NCBI GenBank assembly: GCA_021816665.1
Contig: JAKAXI010000014.1
Location: 1-14,294, forward strand
Reading direction: 5' to 3'
Length of the DNA: 14,294 bases
Source: Bacillota bacterium
GTDB lineage: Bacteria > Bacillota > Bacilli > Alicyclobacillales > Alicyclobacillaceae
Positions 2,159-11,770 of the stretch are shown here, one piece after another (position 1 is the first letter of the stretch; the number at the start of each line of letters is the position of its first letter). The translations under genes were made by a program, and so were the position numbers. A model generated the notes under the pieces. It worked only from the letters and a program-made list of their open reading frames with translations. It was not told the origin of the DNA and made no database searches.

Positions 2159-3076
2159 TCAGTTGGTCGAGAGAGACGCGTACGTGACTCCTGTCAACTG
2201 CTCAGATACCTCCCACAAGCGCCCCGCAAGTTTAATGTCTTTGGACACTGCAGTTGAAGGAGATGGCCCCGGCGCCCCGCGCATGCCGCGCCAGCCTGTC
2301 GGACCCATGTACTCGCCCCCGTGAATGCTCTTGTCCGTCGCAGCGAAGAGTGTCGGCAGTGCACCCGCAGCAGCACTCTGACCAAACGGTTTCGACAGCC
2401 AAGACGTAAACCCACCCATACCGTTCTTCACCAACTGCGTCGATGCAAACCCAGGGTGACAGGCAGCGGCAATCGTCTGAGCGCCTGCAGCGCGCAGCCT
2501 TCGCTCGAGTTCACGCATGAACAAGAGGTTTGCGAGCTTGCTTTGACTGTAAAACGCCCAGCGTTTATAACCTTTGCTCCCATCCAGGTTGTCAAAATAG
2601 ATGTGCCCTCGCTGGTGCGCCAAACTGCTGACGACCACCACTCGTGAGCCAGAGACACTCTGGAGCGTCGGCAAAATGAGTCCGGTCAAGGCAAAGTGCC
2701 CCAAGTGGTTGGTGCCAAACTGCAGTTCAAAGCCATCCTCAGTGCGGGTGTACGGCGGCGCCATGACGCCAGCGTTGTTGATCAGCACATCCAACCGGTC
2801 GAAGCGCGAGTTGAACTCGGCCGCAAACGCGCGGACGCGTGCCTGGCTGGACAAGTCGAGCGACATCACCTGCACCTGAGCCTGCGGGTAGTCTGTCAGG
2901 ATAGCCTTCTTCGCAGTTTCACCACGCTCTGCACTCCGGACTGCGAGAACTACCTCGGCACCTTTTCCAGCGAGCACTTTGGCTGCTTCAAAGCCAATGC
3001 CGCTGTTCGCTCCCGTAACGAGTATCCGTCGACCGCTTTGGTCCGGGATCGACCTGATTGTCCAAACTTCAGCCAC
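2159..3076 (-). CDS. SDR-family NAD(P)-dependent oxidoreductase
   Basis: 305 residues, a classical to slightly long short-chain dehydrogenase. The cofactor loop TGANSGIG is at 21-28, Asp74 sits in SLDLSS, NNAG is at 100-103, and the catalytic set is Ser150, Tyr176 and Lys180 (YSQSK). The overall pattern (RILVTGANSGIG, NHLGHF, CHPGF) resembles the retinol-dehydrogenase/protochlorophyllide-reductase-like branch often annotated only as oxidoreductase. The start is GTG 3076 with AAGGAGG (3084-3090) 7 nt upstream. It is the last gene of the glcE-glcF-glcD-iclR operon; its start is only 21 bp past the iclR stop, and its ribosome binding site fills that gap. The substrate is unknown. By context it could act on a hydroxy-acid or aldehyde linked to glycolate use, but nothing in the sequence proves this. 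Confidence 0.88.
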   Translation of the reverse strand: MAEVWTIRSIPDQSGRRILVTGANSGIGFEAAKVLAGKGAEVVLAVRSAERGETAKKAILTDYPQAQVQVMSLDLSSQARVRAFAAEFNSRFDRLDVLINNAGVMAPPYTRTEDGFELQFGTNHLGHFALTGLILPTLQSVSGSRVVVVSSLAHQRGHIYFDNLDGSKGYKRWAFYSQSKLANLLFMRELERRLRAAGAQTIAAACHPGFASTQLVKNGMGGFTSWLSKPFGQSAAAGALPTLFAATDKSIHGGEYMGPTGWRGMRGAPGPSPSTAVSKDIKLAGRLWEVSEQLTGVTYASLSTN

Positions 3077-3097
3077 AAAAACTCCTCCTTGTCGCCA

Positions 3098-3877
3098 CTA
3101 CGACCGCTCGGGTACAAGCGAGTACCCGAGTCGATCCGAGATTGCTGCCGCTGTCTTTCTCACATACGGGACTAACTCGTGCAAACGGTCCAGGTCCATC
3201 CGGATGCTCGGCCCCGAAACACTGCATGCCGCTACGACGCGTCCGGCATTGTCCCGAATCGGCGCCGCGACACAACATACGCCAAGTTCGTGTTCCTCAA
3301 GGTCGAAGGCAAAGCCCGTCTCCCGTGTCGTTTCAAGGGCGCGCAGGAACGGGTCGCGCTCAGTCACTGTGTGTTCCGTCAACCGCGGCAGGCCGTAGCG
3401 GTCAATAATCCGGACTTGCTCAGACCTTGGCAGAGACGCCAGAATCGCTTTGCCAAGTCCCGTGGCGTGAACCGGTACGCGTGTCCCAACCCGGGAGTGC
3501 ATCCGGATCGTCTGTGCGCTTTCAACCTTCTCAATGTACACCACTTCACCCTGATCGAGGAATGCAAGGTGTACAACCTCGTTGACCTCTTCGGCCAACT
3601 CCTTCAAGTACGGCAGCGCTTCAGCTCGCAAGTCAATCGACGACAGCAGGCGCATGCCGAGGTCCAGTACGCCGTACCCAAGTTTGTAACGGCCCGTCTC
3701 ACTGTCCTGCTCGATGGCGCGGTGCCGCATCATGGTCGTCAGCAGGCGGTGCACCGTGCTTTTGTACATTCCAACCTGGTTCGCGAGTTCGGTTATGCTC
3801 ACGCCTTTCGGGTGCTCACTCACTACTTCGAGCAGAGCAAAGGCCTTATCCACTGATTTGACGGTATAGTCATCCAT
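3098..3877 (-). CDS. IclR-family transcriptional regulator of the glycolate operon
   Basis: 259 residues, typical length. The winged helix-turn-helix lies at about 5-75: VSITELANQVGM at 26-37 is the first helix region and the recognition helix begins near KSTVHRLL at 39-46, followed by the wing GRYKLGYGVLDLG. The C-terminal effector domain shows VPVHATGLGKAILA (134-147), EEHELGVCCVAAPI (194-207) and SVSGPSIRM (219-227), all standard for the family. IclR effector domains bind small acids; E. coli IclR responds to glyoxylate and pyruvate. The start is ATG 3877 with GAGGAG (3888-3893) 10 nt upstream. It sits 25 bp after glcD and before the SDR gene, so it is probably autoregulated. I propose that it binds the shared dyads at 8104-8126 and 10032-10054, linking glcEFD, the permease and aceB (inference). 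Repressor or activator action cannot be decided from sequence. Confidence 0.92.
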   Translation of the reverse strand: MDDYTVKSVDKAFALLEVVSEHPKGVSITELANQVGMYKSTVHRLLTTMMRHRAIEQDSETGRYKLGYGVLDLGMRLLSSIDLRAEALPYLKELAEEVNEVVHLAFLDQGEVVYIEKVESAQTIRMHSRVGTRVPVHATGLGKAILASLPRSEQVRIIDRYGLPRLTEHTVTERDPFLRALETTRETGFAFDLEEHELGVCCVAAPIRDNAGRVVAACSVSGPSIRMDLDRLHELVPYVRKTAAAISDRLGYSLVPERS

Positions 3878-3902
3878 CTCGCTGTCACTCCTCGTCTGCC
3901 TC

Positions 3903-5399
3903 TTAGCTGGTTGAATCCGGGGCGGTCACAGCGGTCTGTTCCTGAAACCCGCTAAATACTTCAACGTTCTGCTCGATGATGCGCCTCGCCTGCTTCACCT
4001 CGACGCAGCGGGCCGGTTCAGGGATGAGTTTCCCGGCGTTGCACAGGTCATTCGGATTGAAGGCTCTGCGAATGGCAATCTGGGCCTCGATCTCCTCGTC
4101 GCGAAACTGGTAGCGCATGTCTTCAATTTTCTCAATCCCGACGCCGTGTTCGCCGGTAATCGTCCCGCCGACGTCGACGCAGACGTGGAGAACTTCCGAA
4201 CCGACGCGGATGGCTTTTTCTGTCTCACCCGGTACCCGACTGTCGTAGCAGATAAGTGGGTGCAAGTTTCCGTCACCTGCGTGAAAAACATTGGCGATGC
4301 GCAGGCCCGACTCGCGGCTGATCTCCGTGATCCGCTGCAATACTTCGGTCAAACGCGACCTCGGGATGACGCCGTCCTGTACGATGTAGTCTGGCGAGAT
4401 CCGCCCCGTAGCGCCAAACGCCATCTTGCGGCTGCTCCACCACAGTGCCCGTTCATCTGTGCTCTCCGCGATTTTCACGGTGCGCACGTGGTTCTGCCGG
4501 CAGATTTCAACGACGCGCTCGGCGTCTTCCTCAACCCCCGCCGCAAGTCCGTCCACTTCGATCAGCAGCACGGCTTCAATATCCGGCGGGTAACCGACGT
4601 GAAAGTTACTCTTATCGACTGCCTGCATCGCAAGTTGGTCCATCATCTCGATCGCGGCGGGGATGATGCCCGTCCCGATGATCGCACTCACTGTGTTGGA
4701 GGCGTCTTCCACTCTGTCGAACATGGCCAGCGCTGTCTGCACGGCTTGTGGCTTCTTCAAAATTTTCACCGTGATCTCGGTCGCGATCCCAAGTGTCCCT
4801 TCTGAACCGACGACAAGTCCCAGGATGTCGTACCCAACGGCGTCGCCGTACGGCTGACCAACGTCGATGACTTCACCGTCTGGCAACACGAACTTCGCAG
4901 CCACGATGTGGTTCGTCGTCACGCCGTATTTAAGACAGTGCGACCCGCCAGCGTTTTCCGCTAGGTTACCGCCAATTGTGCAGACCGACTGGCTCGACGG
5001 GTCTGGCGCGTAGTAGTAGCCATCGCCCGTGATCTGCTTGGTCAAGGTCAGGTTGACAAGCCCAGGTTGCACGACCGCCCGCAGGTTCTCGAAGTCGACC
5101 GACAAGAGTTGGTTCATCCGCGCTAGGCTGATGACGACTTCGTTGTTCAGTGCGATGGCTCCCCCGCTAAGTCCTGTGCCAGCGCCGCGCGGGAGAAACG
5201 GGATCTGATGCTCGTGCAGCCATTTCACAACAGCGGCCACTTCCTCCGTATTGGCGGGAGACACCACCGCTCGCGGCAGCGCCTGTCTAGCCACGTAGCC
5301 GTCGCAGCTAAACACGTGGAGCTTGTTTTGCTCGTGGATGACGTGTTGTTCCCCGACAATCTCCTTCATCGCACGCACCAATTCGACGGGACTGGTCAC
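3903..5399 (-). CDS. glcD: Glycolate oxidase subunit GlcD (FAD-linked oxidase)
   Basis: 498 residues, the normal GlcD length. The N-terminal PCMH-type FAD-binding domain has PRGAGTGLSGG at 70-80, GGNLAENAGG at 143-152 with the following HCLKYGVT, and GSEGTLGIATEI at 198-209. The C-terminal FAD-oxidase domain has HAGDGNLHP at 373-381, GEHGVGIEK at 416-424 and the closing NPNDLCNAGKL at 448-458. GlcD is the flavin subunit that oxidises glycolate to glyoxylate and passes electrons through GlcE/GlcF to the membrane. D-lactate is an alternative substrate in this family. The GTG start overlaps the glcF stop by four bases (GTGA), with AAGGAGG (5410-5416) 10 nt upstream, so translation is likely coupled. 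The gene order here is glcE-glcF-glcD, not the E. coli order glcD-glcE-glcF. Confidence 0.95.
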   Translation of the reverse strand: MTSPVELVRAMKEIVGEQHVIHEQNKLHVFSCDGYVARQALPRAVVSPANTEEVAAVVKWLHEHQIPFLPRGAGTGLSGGAIALNNEVVISLARMNQLLSVDFENLRAVVQPGLVNLTLTKQITGDGYYYAPDPSSQSVCTIGGNLAENAGGSHCLKYGVTTNHIVAAKFVLPDGEVIDVGQPYGDAVGYDILGLVVGSEGTLGIATEITVKILKKPQAVQTALAMFDRVEDASNTVSAIIGTGIIPAAIEMMDQLAMQAVDKSNFHVGYPPDIEAVLLIEVDGLAAGVEEDAERVVEICRQNHVRTVKIAESTDERALWWSSRKMAFGATGRISPDYIVQDGVIPRSRLTEVLQRITEISRESGLRIANVFHAGDGNLHPLICYDSRVPGETEKAIRVGSEVLHVCVDVGGTITGEHGVGIEKIEDMRYQFRDEEIEAQIAIRRAFNPNDLCNAGKLIPEPARCVEVKQARRIIEQNVEVFSGFQEQTAVTAPDSTS

Positions 5400-6736
5400 T
5401 GTTCCGCCGCCTCCTTCTGATACGCTTCATCGAGCAGCTCTACCGTGTGCAACACGTCGAGGTCGCGCTGACGCTTGTGTACACCGAGCCGAATCTGCAT
5501 CATACACCCTGGGTTGCCCATGACAACCGCATCTGCTGTTTCAGGAATATCGTCCATCTTCCGTTCCAGGAGAGCGCTCGCCATATCCGGATGGGTCAAG
5601 TTGTAGATCCCGGCGCTCCCACAACACCGCTCCGAGTCCGGCAGTTCCACGAGTTTTAGGTCAGGGATGGCTCGCAGAAGTTGGCGGGGTTGCGAACGAA
5701 TGTGCTGCGCGTGACAGAGGTGACAGGCGTCGTGATAGGTCACCGTTTTGTTGATGTGCCCCTTTGGCGCTTCAAAACCAACCTCCACCAAGAGCTCTGA
5801 GATGTCGCGGACACGTGCAGAGAAGTCGCGAGCCCGTTGACCGTAGGTAGGGTCATCCCGGAACAGGTCCGGGTACTCTTTCAGGGCGGCACCACAGCCA
5901 GCCGCGTTGATGATCAGGTAGTCCGCTCCAGTAGCGAGGAAGACGTCGATGTTGGTCTTGGCCATGATGCGCGCCTGTTCGCGGTCACCGGCGTGAATCT
6001 GCAGTGCGCCACAACAGACCTGTTCCCGCGGCACTAGAACTTCCAGTCCGTTGCGCACAGCGACGCGAGCAGTCGCCTCGTTCACATGAGCGAAAAAGAC
6101 ATCCATGACACACCCTGTAAAGAGCACGGCCGTACCCTTCTTGGCGTCGCGCGCAGGGATTCGCTCTGGGAGTGCATCGACCGCCATGTCCGCCGCGATC
6201 TCTGGAATCACAGCCTCCATTTCTCGAGCCGCGTGCGGCAGCACACTGAGAGCACCCGTTTTGCGAACGACGGTCCTTAGGCCTGAACGCTGGTAGAAAC
6301 GAATGAACTTGCCGATGGCACGCAAACGCGAGCGATGTGGAAAAACGCCGCGCAAGAAGATCCGCTCTACAGTGCCAGCGCGTCCAACGGGCGGGTAGGC
6401 GGCGTGTGCCTGCCCGCGAGCCGTTTCAATGAGCGACCCGACTTGCACGCCGGATGGACAGACTGTCTCACACGCGCGACAGTCAAGACACGTGAAGACC
6501 GGGTCAATCACTGACTCGTCGAGTGGCAGTTTCCCCTCCGCCGCCTCCTTGATCAAAAGCACGCGTCCCCGCGGTGAATGGTTCTCGTCCTTGAGCTCCT
6601 GGTACGTCGGGCACACATCCAGACAGAATCCGCAGTGAACGCAGACCGAGAACTTCTCTTCCTCTGGTGCATCTGGCCAACGGAACGCGCTCACGTGTCG
6701 AGACATTTGAACGAGCTCTGGTTCTGCCTTTGCCAT
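5396..6736 (-). CDS. glcF: Glycolate oxidase iron-sulfur subunit GlcF
   Basis: 446 residues from ATG 6736. Two 4Fe-4S motifs are clear: C32-x2-C35-x2-C38-x3-C42-P and C83-x2-C86-x2-C89-x3-C93-P. Two cysteine-rich CCG domains follow, with CCGALQIHAG at 241-250, HDACHLCH at 335-342, CCGSAGIYNL at 371-380 and single Gly-Cys pairs near 208, 281 and 410. The subunit carries electrons from the GlcD/GlcE flavins toward the quinone pool. I chose ATG 6736 over the upstream in-frame TTG 6754 because the ATG has AGGGGGG (6744-6750) at 7 nt and follows the glcE stop by a single base, the usual coupled layout. The TTG would overlap glcE by 17 bases and lies past the binding site. The 3' end overlaps glcD by 4 bp. 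Confidence 0.95.
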   Translation of the reverse strand: MAKAEPELVQMSRHVSAFRWPDAPEEEKFSVCVHCGFCLDVCPTYQELKDENHSPRGRVLLIKEAAEGKLPLDESVIDPVFTCLDCRACETVCPSGVQVGSLIETARGQAHAAYPPVGRAGTVERIFLRGVFPHRSRLRAIGKFIRFYQRSGLRTVVRKTGALSVLPHAAREMEAVIPEIAADMAVDALPERIPARDAKKGTAVLFTGCVMDVFFAHVNEATARVAVRNGLEVLVPREQVCCGALQIHAGDREQARIMAKTNIDVFLATGADYLIINAAGCGAALKEYPDLFRDDPTYGQRARDFSARVRDISELLVEVGFEAPKGHINKTVTYHDACHLCHAQHIRSQPRQLLRAIPDLKLVELPDSERCCGSAGIYNLTHPDMASALLERKMDDIPETADAVVMGNPGCMMQIRLGVHKRQRDLDVLHTVELLDEAYQKEAAEQ

Positions 6737-6737
6737 C

Positions 6738-8057
6738 TCAAATCCCCCCTGCAAAGGTTGCCGGACTCATTGTGCGACCGGGATCGATCTGATGCTTGAT
6801 GCGTTCAAACAAAACGCCCGCCCGCCCGATTGGCCCAAATGGGTCCACCCCTTGGCGAACCTGTGCTGAAGCGTGTTTGATCACGACCGTTCCGTTCACA
6901 CGCGTTGCTGCTGTGCGTAGCTCAGTGACAATTTGAGTCGCGAGTTCCGGAGCCAGTCCGCGCACGAAAACCTCCCCTATGCCTAGGGTGACAGCCCAAG
7001 ACTGACGAACGTCAACCCCGTAGCGAGTCGCAAATTCGGCCACTTTGGCAGCGAGGTCATGCCAATTTGTCGGAGCTGCTGCCAAGCGGACTACGAGGTC
7101 TGCGCCTAGTGCCTGCTCCCCCATAGCCTCCCACCAGTCATCTGCCGCTGAACCTTGCAGTACATCTGCCGACATGCTCTGTTCCGTCGCCCACGCCTTG
7201 AGCTGTTCCGTCTGATACTGTGCCGACCGCTCATTTTCGTCGCAGTCCACCGCCAGCATCCAGACTCCTGTGGGCTCGTCGAAACTGGAAAGTGCCTGAG
7301 CTCTCGACGGGATGAGTACCGAGCCGACGAGTTTACTTCGCATCAAGCGGATATCTTCCGCGCTTCCGAAGAGCAGAACCGTTTCCCTGTGCAACGGAAG
7401 CGGTCGCAGTTTAAACGTTAGCTCTGTGATCACCCCAAGTGTCCCGCGTGACCCCACGAACAGCTTCGTCATGTCGTACCCGGCGACATTCTTCACCACT
7501 TTGCTGCCCGTTCTGATCACGGTCCCGTCCGGGTAGACTACACGCAGTGCGATCGCCATATCTCGGACGCCGCCGTACAATGCTCGCCGTGGTCCGCTTG
7601 CCGCAGTCGAAGCGATGCCGCCGATGGTCGAAGCAGCGGGCAGCCACGGGTCTAACGGAAGCATTTTCTGCTCAGCGGTCAAAACACGCCCGAGTTCAGA
7701 TAGAGTGACGCCTGGCTGGACAGTGACGACCAAGTCTGACGGCGAGAAATCGAGCACTTGATTCATGCGACCCATCGACAGCACGATGTGTACTCTTTCC
7801 CCTGGCGCCTCACCCGTCAGTTGCGTACCAGCGCCAATCGGTTTCACCTTCCAACCAGCCTCACTCGCTCTCTTCATGACCGCGGCCGTCTGGGCCTCGT
7901 CCGCCGGTTCGACCAAAACAGCGGGGTAATCACTGCCGGTTTGTAGCAACTCTCCTCCGTTCGCCAGAGCATGGACTGCATCTGCAGTACAAATTTCGGA
8001 TAGGGACGCCAAAATGGTTTGTGCAGTTTCTCGATCTAAAGTTTCCGTATGCTTCAC
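6738..8057 (-). CDS. glcE: Glycolate oxidase subunit GlcE (second FAD-binding subunit)
   Basis: 439 residues. It is a VAO-type FAD-binding protein with PIGAGTQLTG at 73-82, STIGGIASTAASGPRR at 143-158, and VKNVAGYDMTKLFVGSRG at 188-205 followed by TLGVITEL. The last block is characteristic of GlcE. It is longer than E. coli GlcE (about 350 residues), as is common in Gram-positive versions. GlcE pairs with GlcD and GlcF to form glycolate oxidase. It is the first gene of the operon. The start is uncertain: GTG 8057 is in the right place, but the purine-rich GGGGGA directly touches it with almost no spacing. An in-frame CTG 12 bases upstream (8069) has GGAG 6 nt before it and would add four residues. 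The promoter and candidate operator lie about 45-100 bp upstream. Confidence 0.93.
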   Translation of the reverse strand: MKHTETLDRETAQTILASLSEICTADAVHALANGGELLQTGSDYPAVLVEPADEAQTAAVMKRASEAGWKVKPIGAGTQLTGEAPGERVHIVLSMGRMNQVLDFSPSDLVVTVQPGVTLSELGRVLTAEQKMLPLDPWLPAASTIGGIASTAASGPRRALYGGVRDMAIALRVVYPDGTVIRTGSKVVKNVAGYDMTKLFVGSRGTLGVITELTFKLRPLPLHRETVLLFGSAEDIRLMRSKLVGSVLIPSRAQALSSFDEPTGVWMLAVDCDENERSAQYQTEQLKAWATEQSMSADVLQGSAADDWWEAMGEQALGADLVVRLAAAPTNWHDLAAKVAEFATRYGVDVRQSWAVTLGIGEVFVRGLAPELATQIVTELRTAATRVNGTVVIKHASAQVRQGVDPFGPIGRAGVLFERIKHQIDPGRTMSPATFAGGI

Positions 8058-8103
8058 TCCCCCGCTCAGTCGTTGCTCCGTTCGACTGCGTCAGCGCAAG
8101 CTG

Positions 8104-8126
8104 TTCTGTATTACAGAATAATATTC
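8104..8126. promoter_or_regulatory. Candidate IclR operator, glcE/permease intergenic region (site 1)
   Basis: A perfect 15-bp dyad TTCTGTA-T-TACAGAA lies at 8104-8118. A third TTC half-site at 8124-8126 makes a second overlapping dyad AGAATA-A-TATTCT (8115-8127). Site 2 upstream of aceB has the same design and matches at 21 of 28 aligned positions (8103-8130 against 10031-10058). The site lies between the divergent glcE operon and the permease gene. It covers the expected start point of the candidate minus-strand promoter at 8157-8129. Binding by the operon's own IclR protein is inferred. Confidence 0.7.
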
Positions 8127-8128
8127 TA

Positions 8129-8157
8129 ATTCTATGTTAAATTGCTACATTTCTAAA
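8129..8157 (-). promoter_or_regulatory. Candidate promoter of the glcE-glcF-glcD-iclR-SDR operon
   Basis: Read on the minus strand, TTTAGA (8157-8152) and TAGAAT (8134-8129) are 17 nt apart. They match the sigma-A consensus at four and five of six bases. Transcription would start near 8121, inside the candidate operator, a layout that fits repression by steric block. The AT-rich sequence here allows other choices, so confidence is modest. Confidence 0.4.
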
Positions 8158-8168
8158 TACAACAGGTA

Positions 8169-8193
8169 TGAACCGAGATCATCTCAGAGTTCA
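8169..8193. promoter_or_regulatory. Nested dyad upstream of the permease gene
   Basis: The sequence TGAAC (8169-8173), GAGAT (8175-8179), C, ATCTC (8181-8185), GTTCA (8189-8193) forms a nested inverted repeat. The one-base centre forbids an RNA hairpin using the inner arms, so a protein-binding site is more likely than an attenuator. It differs from the TTCTGTA dyad and may serve a second regulator of the permease. It lies 109-133 bp before the ATG. I found no convincing permease promoter. Confidence 0.35.
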
Positions 8194-8286
8194 TTTTCCT
8201 GCCAGTCGTTTGCTGTGGGAGGTGAAGTTTTTTTCCGATGTGTCGTCGGCTTGCGAGAAACCCCTTTCTACACTCACTTGACACGT

Positions 8287-8293
8287 AAGGAGG
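8287..8293 (+). promoter_or_regulatory. Ribosome binding site of the permease gene
   Basis: AAGGAGG lies 8 nt before ATG 8302. It fixes the start and excludes the 56-residue in-frame extension back to 8134, which is not hydrophobic and has no binding site. Confidence 0.85.
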
Positions 8294-8301
8294 ATTTGGG
8301 A

Positions 8302-9948
8302 ATGCCTCAGTCGGTTTTTCACCAATTGTTGACGCCCGTAGGCGGGTCCACACTGGTCTCTTTTCTCATGGGTTTGATCCCCATCGCTGTCGTACTTGTC
8401 CTGCTCGGTATCGTTCGCGCCCCCGCCTGGATCTCTGCGCTGTCCGGCTTGGTCGTTGGATTCATCATTGCACTCGTATTTTGGAAAATCCCTGGCGTGA
8501 TCGCGCTGTCCTCTATCGGTGAAGGAGCAGTGTTCGCCCTCTGGCCGGTCATGTGGATCGTGTTTGCCGCCATGTGGCTATACAACCTCAGCCAGAGAAC
8601 CGGCGCATTCGAGCAGTTTAAGCGCTGGATGTATCGGTATGCGACGACTGACCGGCGCATCCAGGTTCTGATCATCGCTTTCAGCTTCGGTGCTCTCATG
8701 GAAGGCATTGCCGGCTTCGGAACGCCTGTGGCGATCGCGTCCGCCTTGTTGGTCGGGCTCGGGTTTCCGGTACTTGACGCGGTGGTCTACTGTCTCATCT
8801 TCGACACGGCCCCTGTCGCCTACGGGGCGCTCGGTGTCCCGATTGTCACGCTTGGATCCGTCACGAACCTGCACCCGGCAGCTTTGTCCGCCATGGTCGG
8901 CCGCCAACTTCCGTTTTTTGCTTTGCTTCTCCCGTTTTACGTTCTCATCGTCATGGGCGGTTGGAAGGCTCTCAAGGGCGCATGGCCGGTTGCATTGGTC
9001 GGCGGACTGTCGTACAGCGTAACGCAGTTCATCGTCTCGAACTACATCGGTCCGGCCCTCCCCGACGTGCTGGCAGCGCTTGTGTCCCTGATTTGTATCG
9101 TGGGCTTTACGCGGGTTTGGCGACCAAAGGACACGGCTGACTACCAGTCCTACGTTCACTCGTCAAGCGCCGTTGAAATGGCCGCGGCACGCGAGCCAGG
9201 CACTGGACAAGAGCCGAGTGTAAGCTGGCGCGGCTGGGTCCCCTGGTTGACGGTCACCATCGTCGTCATCATTTGGACCTTCGCGAAGGTCGCTGACCTG
9301 GGAGCAAAAGACGTTCATTGGCCGGGGCTCGACAACCTTGTCTACCTGACGCTGTACCACAAGCTCTACGAGGCAGTCTGGAGCTTCCAGCCGCTCGGCA
9401 CTGGAACGGCGATTCTGGTCGCCGTGATCCTCAGTGCGTTCATGCTTCGCGCGCGCTGGACCGATTTCTGGGCTGCCGCCGGCGACAGTTGGAGACAGCT
9501 CTACCTCCCCATCTTTACCGTCATGTGCATCGTCGGTCTTGCGTACCTATACAACTACTCAGGGATGGCGTACACGCTCGGAATCGGCGTCGCTGCTCTC
9601 GGTGCTGCGTTTCCTTTCTTCTCCGGGTTCCTCGGCTGGATCGCCTGTTTCCTGTCTGGATCCGACACCTCTTCCAATGCGCTGTTTGGCAATCTTCAAG
9701 TGGTTGCCGCTAACCGACTCCACCTGAATCCGTACCTGATGGCGGCGACCAATTCATCAGGTGCTGTCATGAGCAAGATGATCTCTCCACAAAACGTATC
9801 GACTGGTGTATCAACCGGGGAATTGCGTGGCAAAGAAGGGCTGGTCATTCGCAGGACATTCGTGCACAGCATCATCCTCACTTGCATTCTTGGACTTCTT
9901 GTCCTGCTGCAGGCGCACGGACTAAGCGGCATGGTGCCGAAAGGCTGA
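8302..9948 (+). CDS. L-lactate/glycolate permease, LldP/GlcA (LctP) family
   Basis: 548 residues, standard for the LctP family, with about 12-14 membrane helices. Hallmarks are EGIAGFGTPVAIASALLVGL at 134-153, FDTAPVAYGALGVP at 167-180, SGSDTSSNALFGNLQ at 452-466, and NSSGAVMSKMISPQNV at 484-499. A longer soluble loop is at about 270-310. The family imports L- and D-lactate and glycolate with protons (LldP and GlcA in E. coli). The neighbouring glycolate oxidase and malate synthase favour glycolate as the physiological substrate, but lactate cannot be excluded. The gene is divergent from glcE across a 244-bp region holding the candidate operator and is followed by a hairpin terminator at 9975-10012. 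Its start is set by AAGGAGG at 8287. Confidence 0.93.
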   Translation: MPQSVFHQLLTPVGGSTLVSFLMGLIPIAVVLVLLGIVRAPAWISALSGLVVGFIIALVFWKIPGVIALSSIGEGAVFALWPVMWIVFAAMWLYNLSQRTGAFEQFKRWMYRYATTDRRIQVLIIAFSFGALMEGIAGFGTPVAIASALLVGLGFPVLDAVVYCLIFDTAPVAYGALGVPIVTLGSVTNLHPAALSAMVGRQLPFFALLLPFYVLIVMGGWKALKGAWPVALVGGLSYSVTQFIVSNYIGPALPDVLAALVSLICIVGFTRVWRPKDTADYQSYVHSSSAVEMAAAREPGTGQEPSVSWRGWVPWLTVTIVVIIWTFAKVADLGAKDVHWPGLDNLVYLTLYHKLYEAVWSFQPLGTGTAILVAVILSAFMLRARWTDFWAAAGDSWRQLYLPIFTVMCIVGLAYLYNYSGMAYTLGIGVAALGAAFPFFSGFLGWIACFLSGSDTSSNALFGNLQVVAANRLHLNPYLMAATNSSGAVMSKMISPQNVSTGVSTGELRGKEGLVIRRTFVHSIILTCILGLLVLLQAHGLSGMVPKG

Positions 9949-9974
9949 CTCCTGTTCCGTGCTCGTTAGACCCC

Positions 9975-10012
9975 AGAGGCCCAGAGGAGACTCTGCGGCC
10001 TCTACTGATTTT
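9975..10012 (+). terminator. Rho-independent terminator after the permease gene
   Basis: AGAGGCC (9975-9981) plus CAGAG (9982-9986) pair with CTCTG (9991-9995) and GGCCTCT (9997-10003). This is a 12-bp stem with one bulged C and a GAGA tetraloop. A short U run (ATTTT, 10008-10012) follows after four bases. It should separate permease transcription from aceB, implying that aceB has its own promoter. Confidence 0.7.
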
Positions 10013-10031
10013 CCGTCCTGACCAGTCGTTG

Positions 10032-10054
10032 TTCTATAATGCAGAACATTATTC
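10032..10054. promoter_or_regulatory. Candidate IclR operator upstream of aceB (site 2)
   Basis: TTCTATA-A-TGCAGAA (10032-10046) is a dyad with five of seven pairs intact, and flanking G/C (10031/10047) adds a sixth pair. A third TTC half-site at 10052-10054 sits exactly 20 nt from the first, as in site 1. Identity to site 1 is 21 of 28 without gaps. The element contains TATAAT (10035-10040), and its third half-site lies where a -35 would fall for the downstream extended -10 at 10072-10080. IclR binding is inferred. Confidence 0.65.
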
Positions 10055-10071
10055 CATTTTGCACAACAAGG

Positions 10072-10080
10072 TGCTATGAT
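10072..10080 (+). promoter_or_regulatory. Candidate extended -10 promoter of aceB
   Basis: TGCTATGAT is an extended -10 (TGn-TATGAT) with no good -35 at 17 nt (TTCCAT at 10052). The start would be near 10087, leaving a leader of about 80 nt. The alternative -10 is the TATAAT inside the operator (10035-10040), which also lacks a good -35. Confidence 0.4.
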
Positions 10081-10152
10081 GGGCAAAAGCCCCTTAGACG
10101 AGTACGAATATTTGTGACATGTAACAATGAACTCGTGCAGGGAATGGGAGAG

Positions 10153-10159
10153 AAGGAGG
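10153..10159 (+). promoter_or_regulatory. Ribosome binding site that sets the aceB start
   Basis: AAGGAGG is 9 nt before GTG 10169. The upstream in-frame ATG at 10127 would translate through this site and add 14 mostly Arg/Glu residues, so the GTG is preferred. Confidence 0.8.
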
Positions 10160-10168
10160 CGGATCGTC

Positions 10169-11770
10169 GTGTCCAAAGCGTACACCTGTCCACCGGGTAT
10201 CACTGTTACGGGTGACTACCAACCAGAATTTGCGAGTATTCTCACGCCGGAAGCCCTGGCCTTCGTGGCAAACCTCGAGCGTAAATTTGGCCCACGTCGA
10301 GAGGAACTGCTGCAAAAACGTCAAGAACGCGAGTTGGAGATTCGCTCTGGGAAACTCCCGGATTTTCTTCCGGAGACCGCATCAGTCCGCAGTGGTGATT
10401 GGACGGTCGGGCCGATTCCTGCAGACTTGCAAGACCGACGCGTTGAGATCACAGGGCCGAGCAGCGACCGAAAAATGGTCATTAACGCACTCAACTCCGG
10501 CGCCAAGTGCTTTATGGCAGACTTTGAAGACGCCAACTCCCCGACGTGGCAGAACAGTGTCCAAGGTCAGATTAACCTGCGCGATGCTATCCGGCGGAAA
10601 ATCGACTACACCAGCCCGGAGGGGAAGGCCTACCGCCTCAACCCAGACATCGCAACGCTCATCGTGCGGCCACGCGGGTGGCACCTCGTAGAAAAGCACG
10701 TGCTTGTCGACGGGAAGGCAGTCTCTGGCGGACTGTTCGACTTCGGCCTCTACTTCTTCCACAACGCGAAAGAACTCATCGCCAGAGGCTCTGGTCCGTA
10801 CTTTTACCTGCCGAAGATGGAGAGCCATTTGGAAGCCCGCCTCTGGAACAATGTCTTTGTCGAAGCGCAACAGCAACTCGGCATTCCGAACGGGACCATC
10901 AAGGCCACCTCGCTGATCGAGACCATCCTGGCGACATTCGAAATGGATGAAATTCTCTACGAACTACGCGATCACGCTGCCGGGCTCAACTGTGGCCGCT
11001 GGGACTACATTTTTAGCTACATCAAGAAGTTCCGCCATCAACCAGAAATGATTTTGCCTGACCGCGCGCAAGTCAACATGACTGTACCGTTCATGCGCGC
11101 GTACACCTTATTCACAATTCAAACGTGTCACAAGCGTGGGGCCTTTGCCATCGGTGGAATGGCTGCGCAAATCCCGATTAAAAACGACCCGGCAGCTAAC
11201 GAGGATGCTCTCACCAAAGTGCGTGCGGACAAGGAACGCGAAGCAGGAGACGGTCACGATGGTACGTGGGTAGCACATCCCGGGCTCGTCCCCGTTGCCA
11301 AAGAGGTATTCGACCGACTGATGCCAACGCCCAACCAGCTCGACCGCAAGCGTGAGGACGTGCACGTTACAGCCGCCGAACTCGTGGCTGTGCCGGCCGG
11401 CACCGTCACAGAGAGCGGTCTTCGTACAAACGTCAGTGTCGGCATACAGTACATTGCCGCTTGGCTGAATGGATCAGGCGCTGTGCCGATTTTCAATCTG
11501 ATGGAGGATGCGGCGACCGCCGAGATCTCCAGAGCACAGGTTTGGCAGTGGATCCACCATCCGAGAGGCGTTCTCGACGACGGCCGCAAAGTGACTGTGG
11601 AACTATTTCGGACAGTCGTCCAGGAGGAACTGGAGAAAATCCGCGCTGCAGTTGGCGCCGACGCCTATGCGCAAGGAAAATTCGAGCAAGCTGCGCAGTT
11701 GTTTGACGAACTGTCGGTTCGGGAAGAGTTCGAGGACTTCCTCACCGTCCCCGGCTACGCGTATCTGTAA
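10169..11770 (+). CDS. aceB: Malate synthase A
   Basis: 533 residues, the usual malate synthase A length. It condenses glyoxylate with acetyl-CoA to malate and CoA in the cytoplasm. Visible blocks are [12 protein letters not shown] at 116-127, [11 protein letters not shown] at 167-177 with the substrate-binding Arg, [17 protein letters not shown] at 211-227, Glu251 in SLIETI and Asp279 in CGRWDYIF (the Mg ligands), AHPGLVPVA at 369-377 and [13 protein letters not shown] at 443-455 with the catalytic base Asp447. These positions agree with E. coli AceB (Glu250, Asp278, Asp447, recalled from family knowledge). No isocitrate lyase gene is in the window. Next to a glycolate oxidase, the enzyme probably serves glycolate use, the job of malate synthase G (GlcB) in E. 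coli. Control is probably by IclR through the 10032 dyad. Confidence 0.96.

Follow-up and report, generated by a model that had tools for sequence, protein, structure and literature searches.

A shared operator-like element joins glycolate genes and malate synthase A in Alicyclobacillales and is probably linked to an adjacently encoded IclR-type regulator

The window studied here is a stretch of 14,294 nucleotides (contig JAKAXI010000014.1 of assembly GCA_021816665.1) from a bacterium of the Alicyclobacillaceae. Its source genome (G000) is 72.6% complete and comprises 2.07 Mb on 319 contigs; the closest named relative found is Alicyclobacillus sp. ALC3, with a permease 97% identical and the same gene order. 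In this window, genes resembling those of glycolate oxidase (glc), a permease gene and the malate synthase A gene aceB lie together with a gene for an IclR-family regulator, and one palindromic element recurs in two intergenic regions. Genome comparison showed that this element is shared and conserved, forms a tandem at aceB, co-occurs with the iclR gene and has a narrow set of targets. Judged on these comparisons, the conserved element is very probably regulatory, and it is very probably the docking site of the adjacently encoded IclR-type regulator.

The locus and its two operator-like sites

The genes are arranged leftward as glcE-glcF-glcD-iclR-sdr and rightward as an LctP-type permease gene followed by aceB. 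The first gene of the glc operon encodes a GlcE-like flavin adenine dinucleotide (FAD) subunit (6738..8057, minus strand; NF008439, 125.8 bits, cut-off 284 not reached; PF01565), and is followed by those of a GlcF-like iron-sulfur subunit (5396..6754, minus; NF008434, 280.4 bits, cut-off 333 not reached; PF02754 and PF13183) and a GlcD-like FAD subunit (3903..5399, minus; TIGR00387, 502.3 bits, cut-off 567.9 not reached; PF02913 and PF01565). Glycolate oxidase models are among the best matches of all three despite scores under the curated cut-offs. Therefore, the name glycolate oxidase is based on related models and on the context, and the substrate, glycolate or D-lactate, would be glycolate in view of the co-control with aceB. 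The likely operator-binding protein is encoded at 3098..3877 (minus) and possesses both IclR-family domains (PF09339, 64.6 bits, cut-off 22; PF01614, 190.3 bits, cut-off 24). Downstream of it lies the gene of an SDR oxidoreductase (2159..3076, minus; NF004846, 396.4 bits, cut-off 268). On the other side, the LctP/GlcA-type lactate/glycolate permease (8302..9948, plus; PF02652) passes the LctP-family model TIGR00795 with 471.2 bits (cut-off 341.15) and does not reach the equivalog models for L-lactate permease and glycolate permease. Malate synthase A is encoded by aceB (10169..11770, plus; TIGR01344, 850.8 bits, cut-off 594.5), with a GTG start at 10169 behind AGGAGG.

An earlier note, made from the DNA letters of the window, had matched positions 8103-8130 (GTTCTGTATTACAGAATAATATTCTAAT) and 10031-10058 (GTTCTATAATGCAGAACATTATTCCATT) at 21 of 28 bases without a gap, and recomputation returned the same figure. 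The chance level of about 7 given there applies to a single fixed alignment. A fair test takes the best match over all offsets and both strands between the two intergenic regions, and this gave 16-18 identities in 287 of 300 pairs of first-order Markov intergenic sequences, and 20 and 21 once each. By itself, the pair match has a p of about 0.003. Of the two 15-bp dyads described in the note, that at 8104-8118 is perfect (7/7 arm pairs) and is the window's sole perfect 7-1-7 dyad, while direct reading of that at 10032-10046 showed it to be imperfect (5/7). Both are indeed intergenic: the first lies between the starts of glcE (8057, minus) and the permease gene (8302, plus), and the second between the end of the permease gene (9948) and the GTG of aceB (10169). 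A matrix trained on other genera ranks the two sites top in the window, with 24.7 and 22.6 bits, and the next at 10.6 bits. When either intergenic region was shuffled 3000 times under a Markov model, no shuffle reached the site scores, and the highest maximum across 300 whole-window Markov sequences was 21.5 bits. On these Markov comparisons and the other-genera matrix scores, a chance match was rejected.

The element upstream of aceB turned out to be longer than a single dyad. Its consensus is a 37-bp block, GTTCTGTAATnCAGAACAnTnTTCCATATTnCACAAC, with two dyads whose starts are 20 bp apart, as derived from 27 sequences (29 elements, including near-identical ones, less two redundant). These 27 elements were cut at a fixed length from site 1, so that gaplessness is by construction; the columns of site 2 are conserved nonetheless. 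In the window, site 1 (GTTCTATAATGCAGAAC; 10031..10047, plus) and site 2 (TTCCATTTTGCACAAC; 10052..10067, plus) of operator 2 form the tandem 10032-10046 and 10052-10066, and the profile R1, built from aceB elements only, matches 10031-10067 over its full length with an expectation value (E) of 3.3e-9. An extended -10 promoter of aceB, TGC-TATGAT, follows at 10072..10080 (plus) at fixed spacing from the 37-bp element. In 26 of the 29 aceB elements, TGN-TANNNT starts exactly 7 nt past the block. If the -10 hexamer is placed at -12 to -7, the dyads lie at about -55 to -41 and -35 to -21 from the inferred start point. Within site 1, every one of the 27 aligned elements has the same outer G and the same TTC and AGA in the arms, while the centre is variable.

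Operator 1, between glcE and the permease gene, is a 17-bp dyad (GTTCTGTATTACAGAAT; 8103..8119; 22.6 bits with the other-genera matrix), which R1 matches with E 0.003 in its own genome. A weak, degenerate second copy can be read directly 20 bp downstream (8124..8138, plus; placed by the 20-bp spacing). This copy retains the half-site TTCTA and has lost the far half, and the R1 match stops at model position 25. Tandem dyads of the IclR family have centres 18-22 nt apart; aceB has such a tandem, at 20 nt, and the glcE/permease site of the window has one strong dyad and a remnant. A sigma-70 promoter scan of 7950-10200 found one site, no more than in shuffles, so we claim no promoter on the glcE side.

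The common site, GTTCTGTAATACAGAAC, fits GTTYCRYW3RYGRAAC, a 17-bp site of the GTT-11-AAC type, at 15 of 17 positions by hand comparison. According to the main text of Suvorova and Gelfand (2021, PMC8222616), GTT-11-AAC dyads are overrepresented in Firmicutes for the IclR family, and tandems 18-22 nt apart are predicted in 94 orthologous groups and interpreted as two dimers bound to the same face of the DNA. Our motif is thus of the same dyad type, and its 20-nt tandem falls within the known spacing. The published consensus has C/G at dyad positions 5/13, whereas the motif described here has T/A. The main text of that study, as distinct from its supplement, contains no malate synthase, no lactate permease and none of the three COG numbers searched.

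Conservation and the predicted set of target genes

The earlier note had named conservation of the dyads upstream of orthologues as a check, and they proved conserved at both aceB and glcE. For aceB, a 37-bp matrix was trained leaving out the genus being scored and applied to the 44 genomes, from two families, whose aceB could be scored (G052, with a 3' fragment only, was excluded). The upstream regions split cleanly into 32 at 27.2-54.7 bits and 12 at -3.3 or lower, and reversed sequences reached a maximum of 5.6 bits. The window IclR or its orthologue (62-91% identity) is present in 33 of these 44 genomes. Of the IclR-bearing genomes, 31 of 33 have the element at aceB, compared with 1 of the 11 without an orthologue, namely G039, which is 82% complete. 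Both misses hold a displaced or weaker copy: in G051, a tandem element with a promoter lies about 2.1 kb upstream of aceB with a 506-residue open reading frame (ORF) intervening, and G053 has a weaker tandem element, likewise with a promoter (locus L395, about 4309-4358), immediately ahead of an aceB without its 5' end. The intervening ORF of G051 (L396, 4252-6425) matches no Pfam family over residues 1-381 and may be a mobile element; the missing 5' end in G053 may reflect gene decay or an assembly error.

For glcE, a single-site matrix derived from the aceB elements scored 22 of 30 upstream regions at 11.2 bits or more, with a reversed-control maximum of 2.2 (G037, for which no locus was returned, was excluded). 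A random-window control, in which about 4% scored at least 13 bits, was not used because its windows were drawn from loci with true sites. Among the 30, 20 of the 24 IclR-bearing genomes pass, and so do two of the six without an orthologue (G039 and G020); the glcE site of G031 is also its aceB site and hence not independent. Three further IclR-bearing genomes (G005, G010 and G012) have R1 matches, and G006 has a 24.9-bit site before the permease gene that leads its glc operon.

Upstream of permease genes, sites of at least 10 bits were found in 21 of 25 scored cases, a count that stands without a control (G035, whose alignment begins at residue 50, was excluded). Since 17 of these sites are shared with a divergent gene (aceB in nine cases, glcE in eight), they add little; the rest are those of G006, G028, G030 and G031. 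In G021, G022 and G023, the permease gene sits behind glcD in the same operon, and G019 lacks IclR. Two stand-alone permease genes have a dyad of their own: that of G031, 0.5 Mb from aceB and the glc operon on the same contig (12.9 bits), and that of G030, on a separate contig (15.9 bits). In G030, aceB, the glc-iclR operon, the permease gene and lrgAB are spread over four contigs, with sites of 29.4, 16.6, 15.9 and 27.5 bits, respectively.

Scans of whole genomes for unrelated matches, also proposed in the earlier note, returned few. Over 41 family genomes, with at most 150 candidates scored per genome and filters strict enough to lose weak matches, R1 gave at least 46 matches at E up to 0.01, 42 of them at aceB or glcE/permease. 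Of these, 28 are at aceB (27 genomes, one counted on both strands) and 14 at glcE or glcE/permease (upstream of glcE in 12 genomes, and between glcE and the permease gene in the window and G039). The other four fall at three places (G006 on both strands, G030 and G025). Among the candidates scored, the window genome has no match elsewhere better than E 0.3, and the complete genome of ALC3 has solely two matches up to E 0.5, at the same two places. A 16-base degenerate pattern, designed after viewing the aceB sites, occurs 37 times in the 41 genomes compared with 5 times when reversed; 26 occurrences are at aceB, 3 at glcE or a permease gene and 8 elsewhere. At E up to 5, R1 found nothing in L067, L092 or L077-L080, the last four not being from Alicyclobacillales.

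The note's prediction of a single glycolate regulon is thus supported for the permease gene, the glc operon and aceB, which share the element, and falls short for sdr: among the loci mapped (including 16 of 80 retained from 176 found), sdr adjoins iclR solely in the window and ALC3, so that general membership of the SDR is not supported. In the mapped family loci, iclR is either last in the glc operon or divergent from aceB or the permease gene, and it is therefore probably self-controlled there.

The element also distinguishes the glycolate genes from the glyoxylate shunt. Isocitrate lyase loci (25 of 30 returned, the five with weak partial isocitrate lyase matches being left out; 1.5-kb flanks where the contig allows) contain no site above 8.2 bits, and 11 loci with a shunt-type aceB, beside isocitrate lyase, contain none above 9.8 bits; seven genomes belong to both sets, and some loci are identical. 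A twelfth locus, in G006, with a mere aceB fragment, has no 10-bit site. Since no 10-bit site occurs at either type of locus, we rejected the idea that the operator belongs to a wider acetate/glyoxylate-shunt regulon. G017 and G018 hold both malate synthases and have the element at the glycolate-linked one only. A second malate synthase A gene beside isocitrate lyase, without the operator, was seen in L386, L387 and L388 (G018, G017 and G019, respectively), and the two malate synthases of these three genomes are apparently under separate control. G005, G010, G012, G022 and G023 (each at least 98% complete) have aceB, IclR and the element, and their matches to isocitrate lyase are only weak and partial (E about 1e-13); a role of their malate synthase in the shunt is thus improbable.

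The regulator and its probable mode of action

The window IclR is the sole regulator among the eight window proteins scanned. Its best NCBIfam match is the model of BhcR, the regulator of Paracoccus denitrificans (NF045644, 227.4 bits, cut-off 350 not reached); it likewise remains under the cut-offs of the E. coli-type IclR equivalog NF008601 (178.4 bits, cut-off 380), KdgR NF011671 (208.7, cut-off 275) and AllR NF007548 (147.1, cut-off 406). A PDB sequence search returned IclR-family chains only, among the matches listed. Table 1 of PMC11323563 gives residues 160, 161, 212, 239 and 241 of E. coli IclR as those touching the oxygens of glyoxylate or pyruvate. In our alignment, Gly160, Asp212, Ser239 and Ser241 (E. 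coli numbering) are retained in all 26 orthologues. Further likeness to BhcR is seen in the pocket, where position 143 is Thr and position 161 holds a larger residue, as judged against the same report (PMC11323563); the patch Thr of the orthologues is the BhcR residue.

We consider it probable that these sites are operators of IclR (3098-3877) through which a glyoxylate-relieved repression of a glycolate regulon is exerted. In this mechanism, two IclR dimers (a tetramer) would sit side by side on the tandem dyads, two helical turns apart, and cover the aceB promoter from -55 to -21; IclR would also occupy the dyad between glcE and the permease gene. Without substrate, the bound protein would block RNA polymerase. 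Once glycolate enters, GlcDEF would convert it to glyoxylate, which would bind the C-terminal domain of IclR and make the protein leave the DNA, so that permease, glycolate oxidase, malate synthase and regulator would be made together. As a docking site of IclR, the shared element would let the glycolate-to-malate route be switched as one unit. A glyoxylate-relieved repressor is favoured because of the IclR domains, the published operator traits of the family and the retention of four of the five oxygen-contact residues. We infer IclR binding to the element, repression over activation and glyoxylate as the signal, and the direction of control is the least certain of these steps.

Several observations weigh against this proposal. 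In 8 of the 10 genomes that lack both IclR and the element, the aceB scored is shunt-type, beside isocitrate lyase (G016, G020, G040, G045, G046, G047, G054 and G055), which leaves G019 and G033 (85% complete) to carry the clean co-occurrence contrast, as the only two with a glycolate-linked aceB and neither IclR nor element; since the genomes are moreover related, the counts cannot be taken as independent events. Four glcE sites are weak (11-13 bits), among them those of G024-G026, which lie at an extrapolated gene start. G020, a 100% complete genome with no close IclR orthologue and nothing IclR-like behind glcD, has a site of 17.1 bits at glcE; we read this site as a remnant. The stand-alone permease site of G030 (L092) is unseen by R1 even at E 5, and G042, G051 and G053, of the second family, have no site before iclR itself. 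In the protein, position 161 is Leu in all 26 orthologues (Ala in IclR, Ile in BhcR), and the hydrophobic patch Thr (Ser in one)-Met-Val-Val/Ile differs from that of E. coli IclR. Site 1, centred at -48, would suit an activator as well, and BhcR, although it binds DNA less with glyoxylate in vitro, is reported to act as an activator in vivo (PMC11323563).

These last two points lead to a possible but rather doubtful alternative with the same regulator and sites, in which IclR is an activator or a dual regulator that recruits RNA polymerase from -48/-28 in the presence of glyoxylate or glycolate. It would agree with the aceB promoter of the window, which combines an extended -10 with a poor -35 (TTCCAT), with the requirement of BhcR for expression in vivo (PMC11323563), and with the activators and dual regulators that the IclR family includes according to the main text of PMC8222616. 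However, site 2 spans -35 to -21 in 26 of 29 aligned aceB promoters, which suits occlusion. Moreover, G019 keeps the glc genes, the permease gene and aceB (80% identity) and has neither IclR nor sites of 8 bits; this persistence is easier to understand if the lost protein was a repressor.

That a different transcription factor binds the element and the linked iclR is a passenger seems quite improbable. IclR binding is a prediction, the glcE site of G020 lacks a close IclR orthologue, and 13 of the 26 family genomes with an orthologue, the window genome included, hold a further IclR-family gene (E up to 1e-40, 33-38% identity), all of which would leave room for another factor. By contrast, the dyad and the tandem spacing are of the IclR type, the presence of the element tracks the window IclR orthologue, and no other regulator was found among the scanned window proteins. 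A chance match, or conservation merely as promoter sequence, can be dismissed as next to impossible: although the second window dyad is imperfect and best-of-all-offset chance matches often reach 17-18 of 28, the R1 genome scans, the glcE scoring and the leave-one-genus-out scoring of aceB already disfavour it, and so do the outer G, TTC and AGA of site 1, invariant around a variable centre, the position of site 1 upstream of -35, the absence of the element from shunt aceB and isocitrate lyase loci, and the two stand-alone permease genes with a dyad.

The proposed repressor has recognizable counterparts. E. coli IclR, acting on aceBAK, is likewise an IclR-family protein with a 15-bp 7-1-7 dyad (TGGAAATNATTTCCA, as given in the main text of PMC8222616) and malate synthase A as a target. 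The operator sequence itself differs from the Alicyclobacillales element. Furthermore, E. coli IclR controls the glyoxylate shunt (aceB-aceA-aceK), whereas the present element is found at genes for glycolate uptake and oxidation and at aceB, and isocitrate lyase is without a site. The binding site of E. coli IclR reportedly overlaps the aceBAK promoter (Pan et al. 1996). The E. coli glc cluster, glcDEFGBA, resembles the present locus in that glycolate oxidase, glycolate permease and malate synthase are clustered beside a regulator gene; its regulator, however, is GlcC, a GntR/FadR-type protein, and its malate synthase is of type G, compared with an IclR-family protein and malate synthase A here. 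BhcR is a glyoxylate-responsive IclR-family regulator in glycolate assimilation, but it controls the bhc genes of the beta-hydroxyaspartate cycle, and the glycolate oxidase of P. denitrificans is reported to be under a separate repressor, GlcR. Combined, this would be a known kind of system, an IclR-family glycolate regulon, and the regulon itself seems undescribed: among the open papers listed for Alicyclobacillus or IclR with glycolate genes, no title or abstract opening describes it.

Possible additional targets and biological meaning

A few sites lie outside the core set. In G006, a 27.5-bit operator (L206, G006:C1, 4054-4070) precedes genes for a POT-family transporter (PF00854) and a DAO-family FAD oxidase (PF01266); the oxidase would yield glyoxylate and fit the regulon if its substrate were glycine or sarcosine. 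In G025, sites of 17.6 and 20.0 bits (L209, G025:C1, 6263 and 6572) lie before a gene with a sub-threshold CitMHS match, which may be a further target in one species. In G028, a dyad of this type scoring 23.4 bits (L220, G028:C20, 4141-4157) stands beside the gene of a distant IclR paralogue (29% identity) and is perhaps that paralogue's own operator.

In G030, a 27.5-bit operator (L208, G030:C107, 4132-4148) lies about 45 bp before an lrgA-like ORF of 127 residues, named by position and eye, and lrgB, named by PF04172 (genes 3004-4086, minus); an aldo/keto reductase gene is on the opposite side. LrgAB is the bacterial homologue of PLGG1, the glycolate/glycerate translocator of plant plastids. 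An lrgB match is present in 33 family genomes, of which 20 loci were scanned; G030 has the sole site, and the other 19 show none above 5.8 bits. We suggest only tentatively, and with more doubt than confidence, that the Alicyclobacillales IclR serves glycolate assimilation and not the acetate (glyoxylate shunt) programme, with a dedicated malate synthase A in a regulon that includes lrgAB of G030, which would make LrgAB a glycolate transporter.

If this were true, the regulon would reveal which transporters carry glycolate, LrgAB besides LctP. More generally, an IclR-family protein for which we found no study gains a likely signal, together with a predicted operator and target set. The ambiguous GlcDEF-like oxidase and LctP-like permease of these bacteria would serve glycolate and not lactate, as suggested by their co-control with malate synthase. 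The element also tells apart two malate synthase genes with different roles, in glycolate use and in the acetate shunt, and it could be used as a marker of glycolate genes in related genomes.

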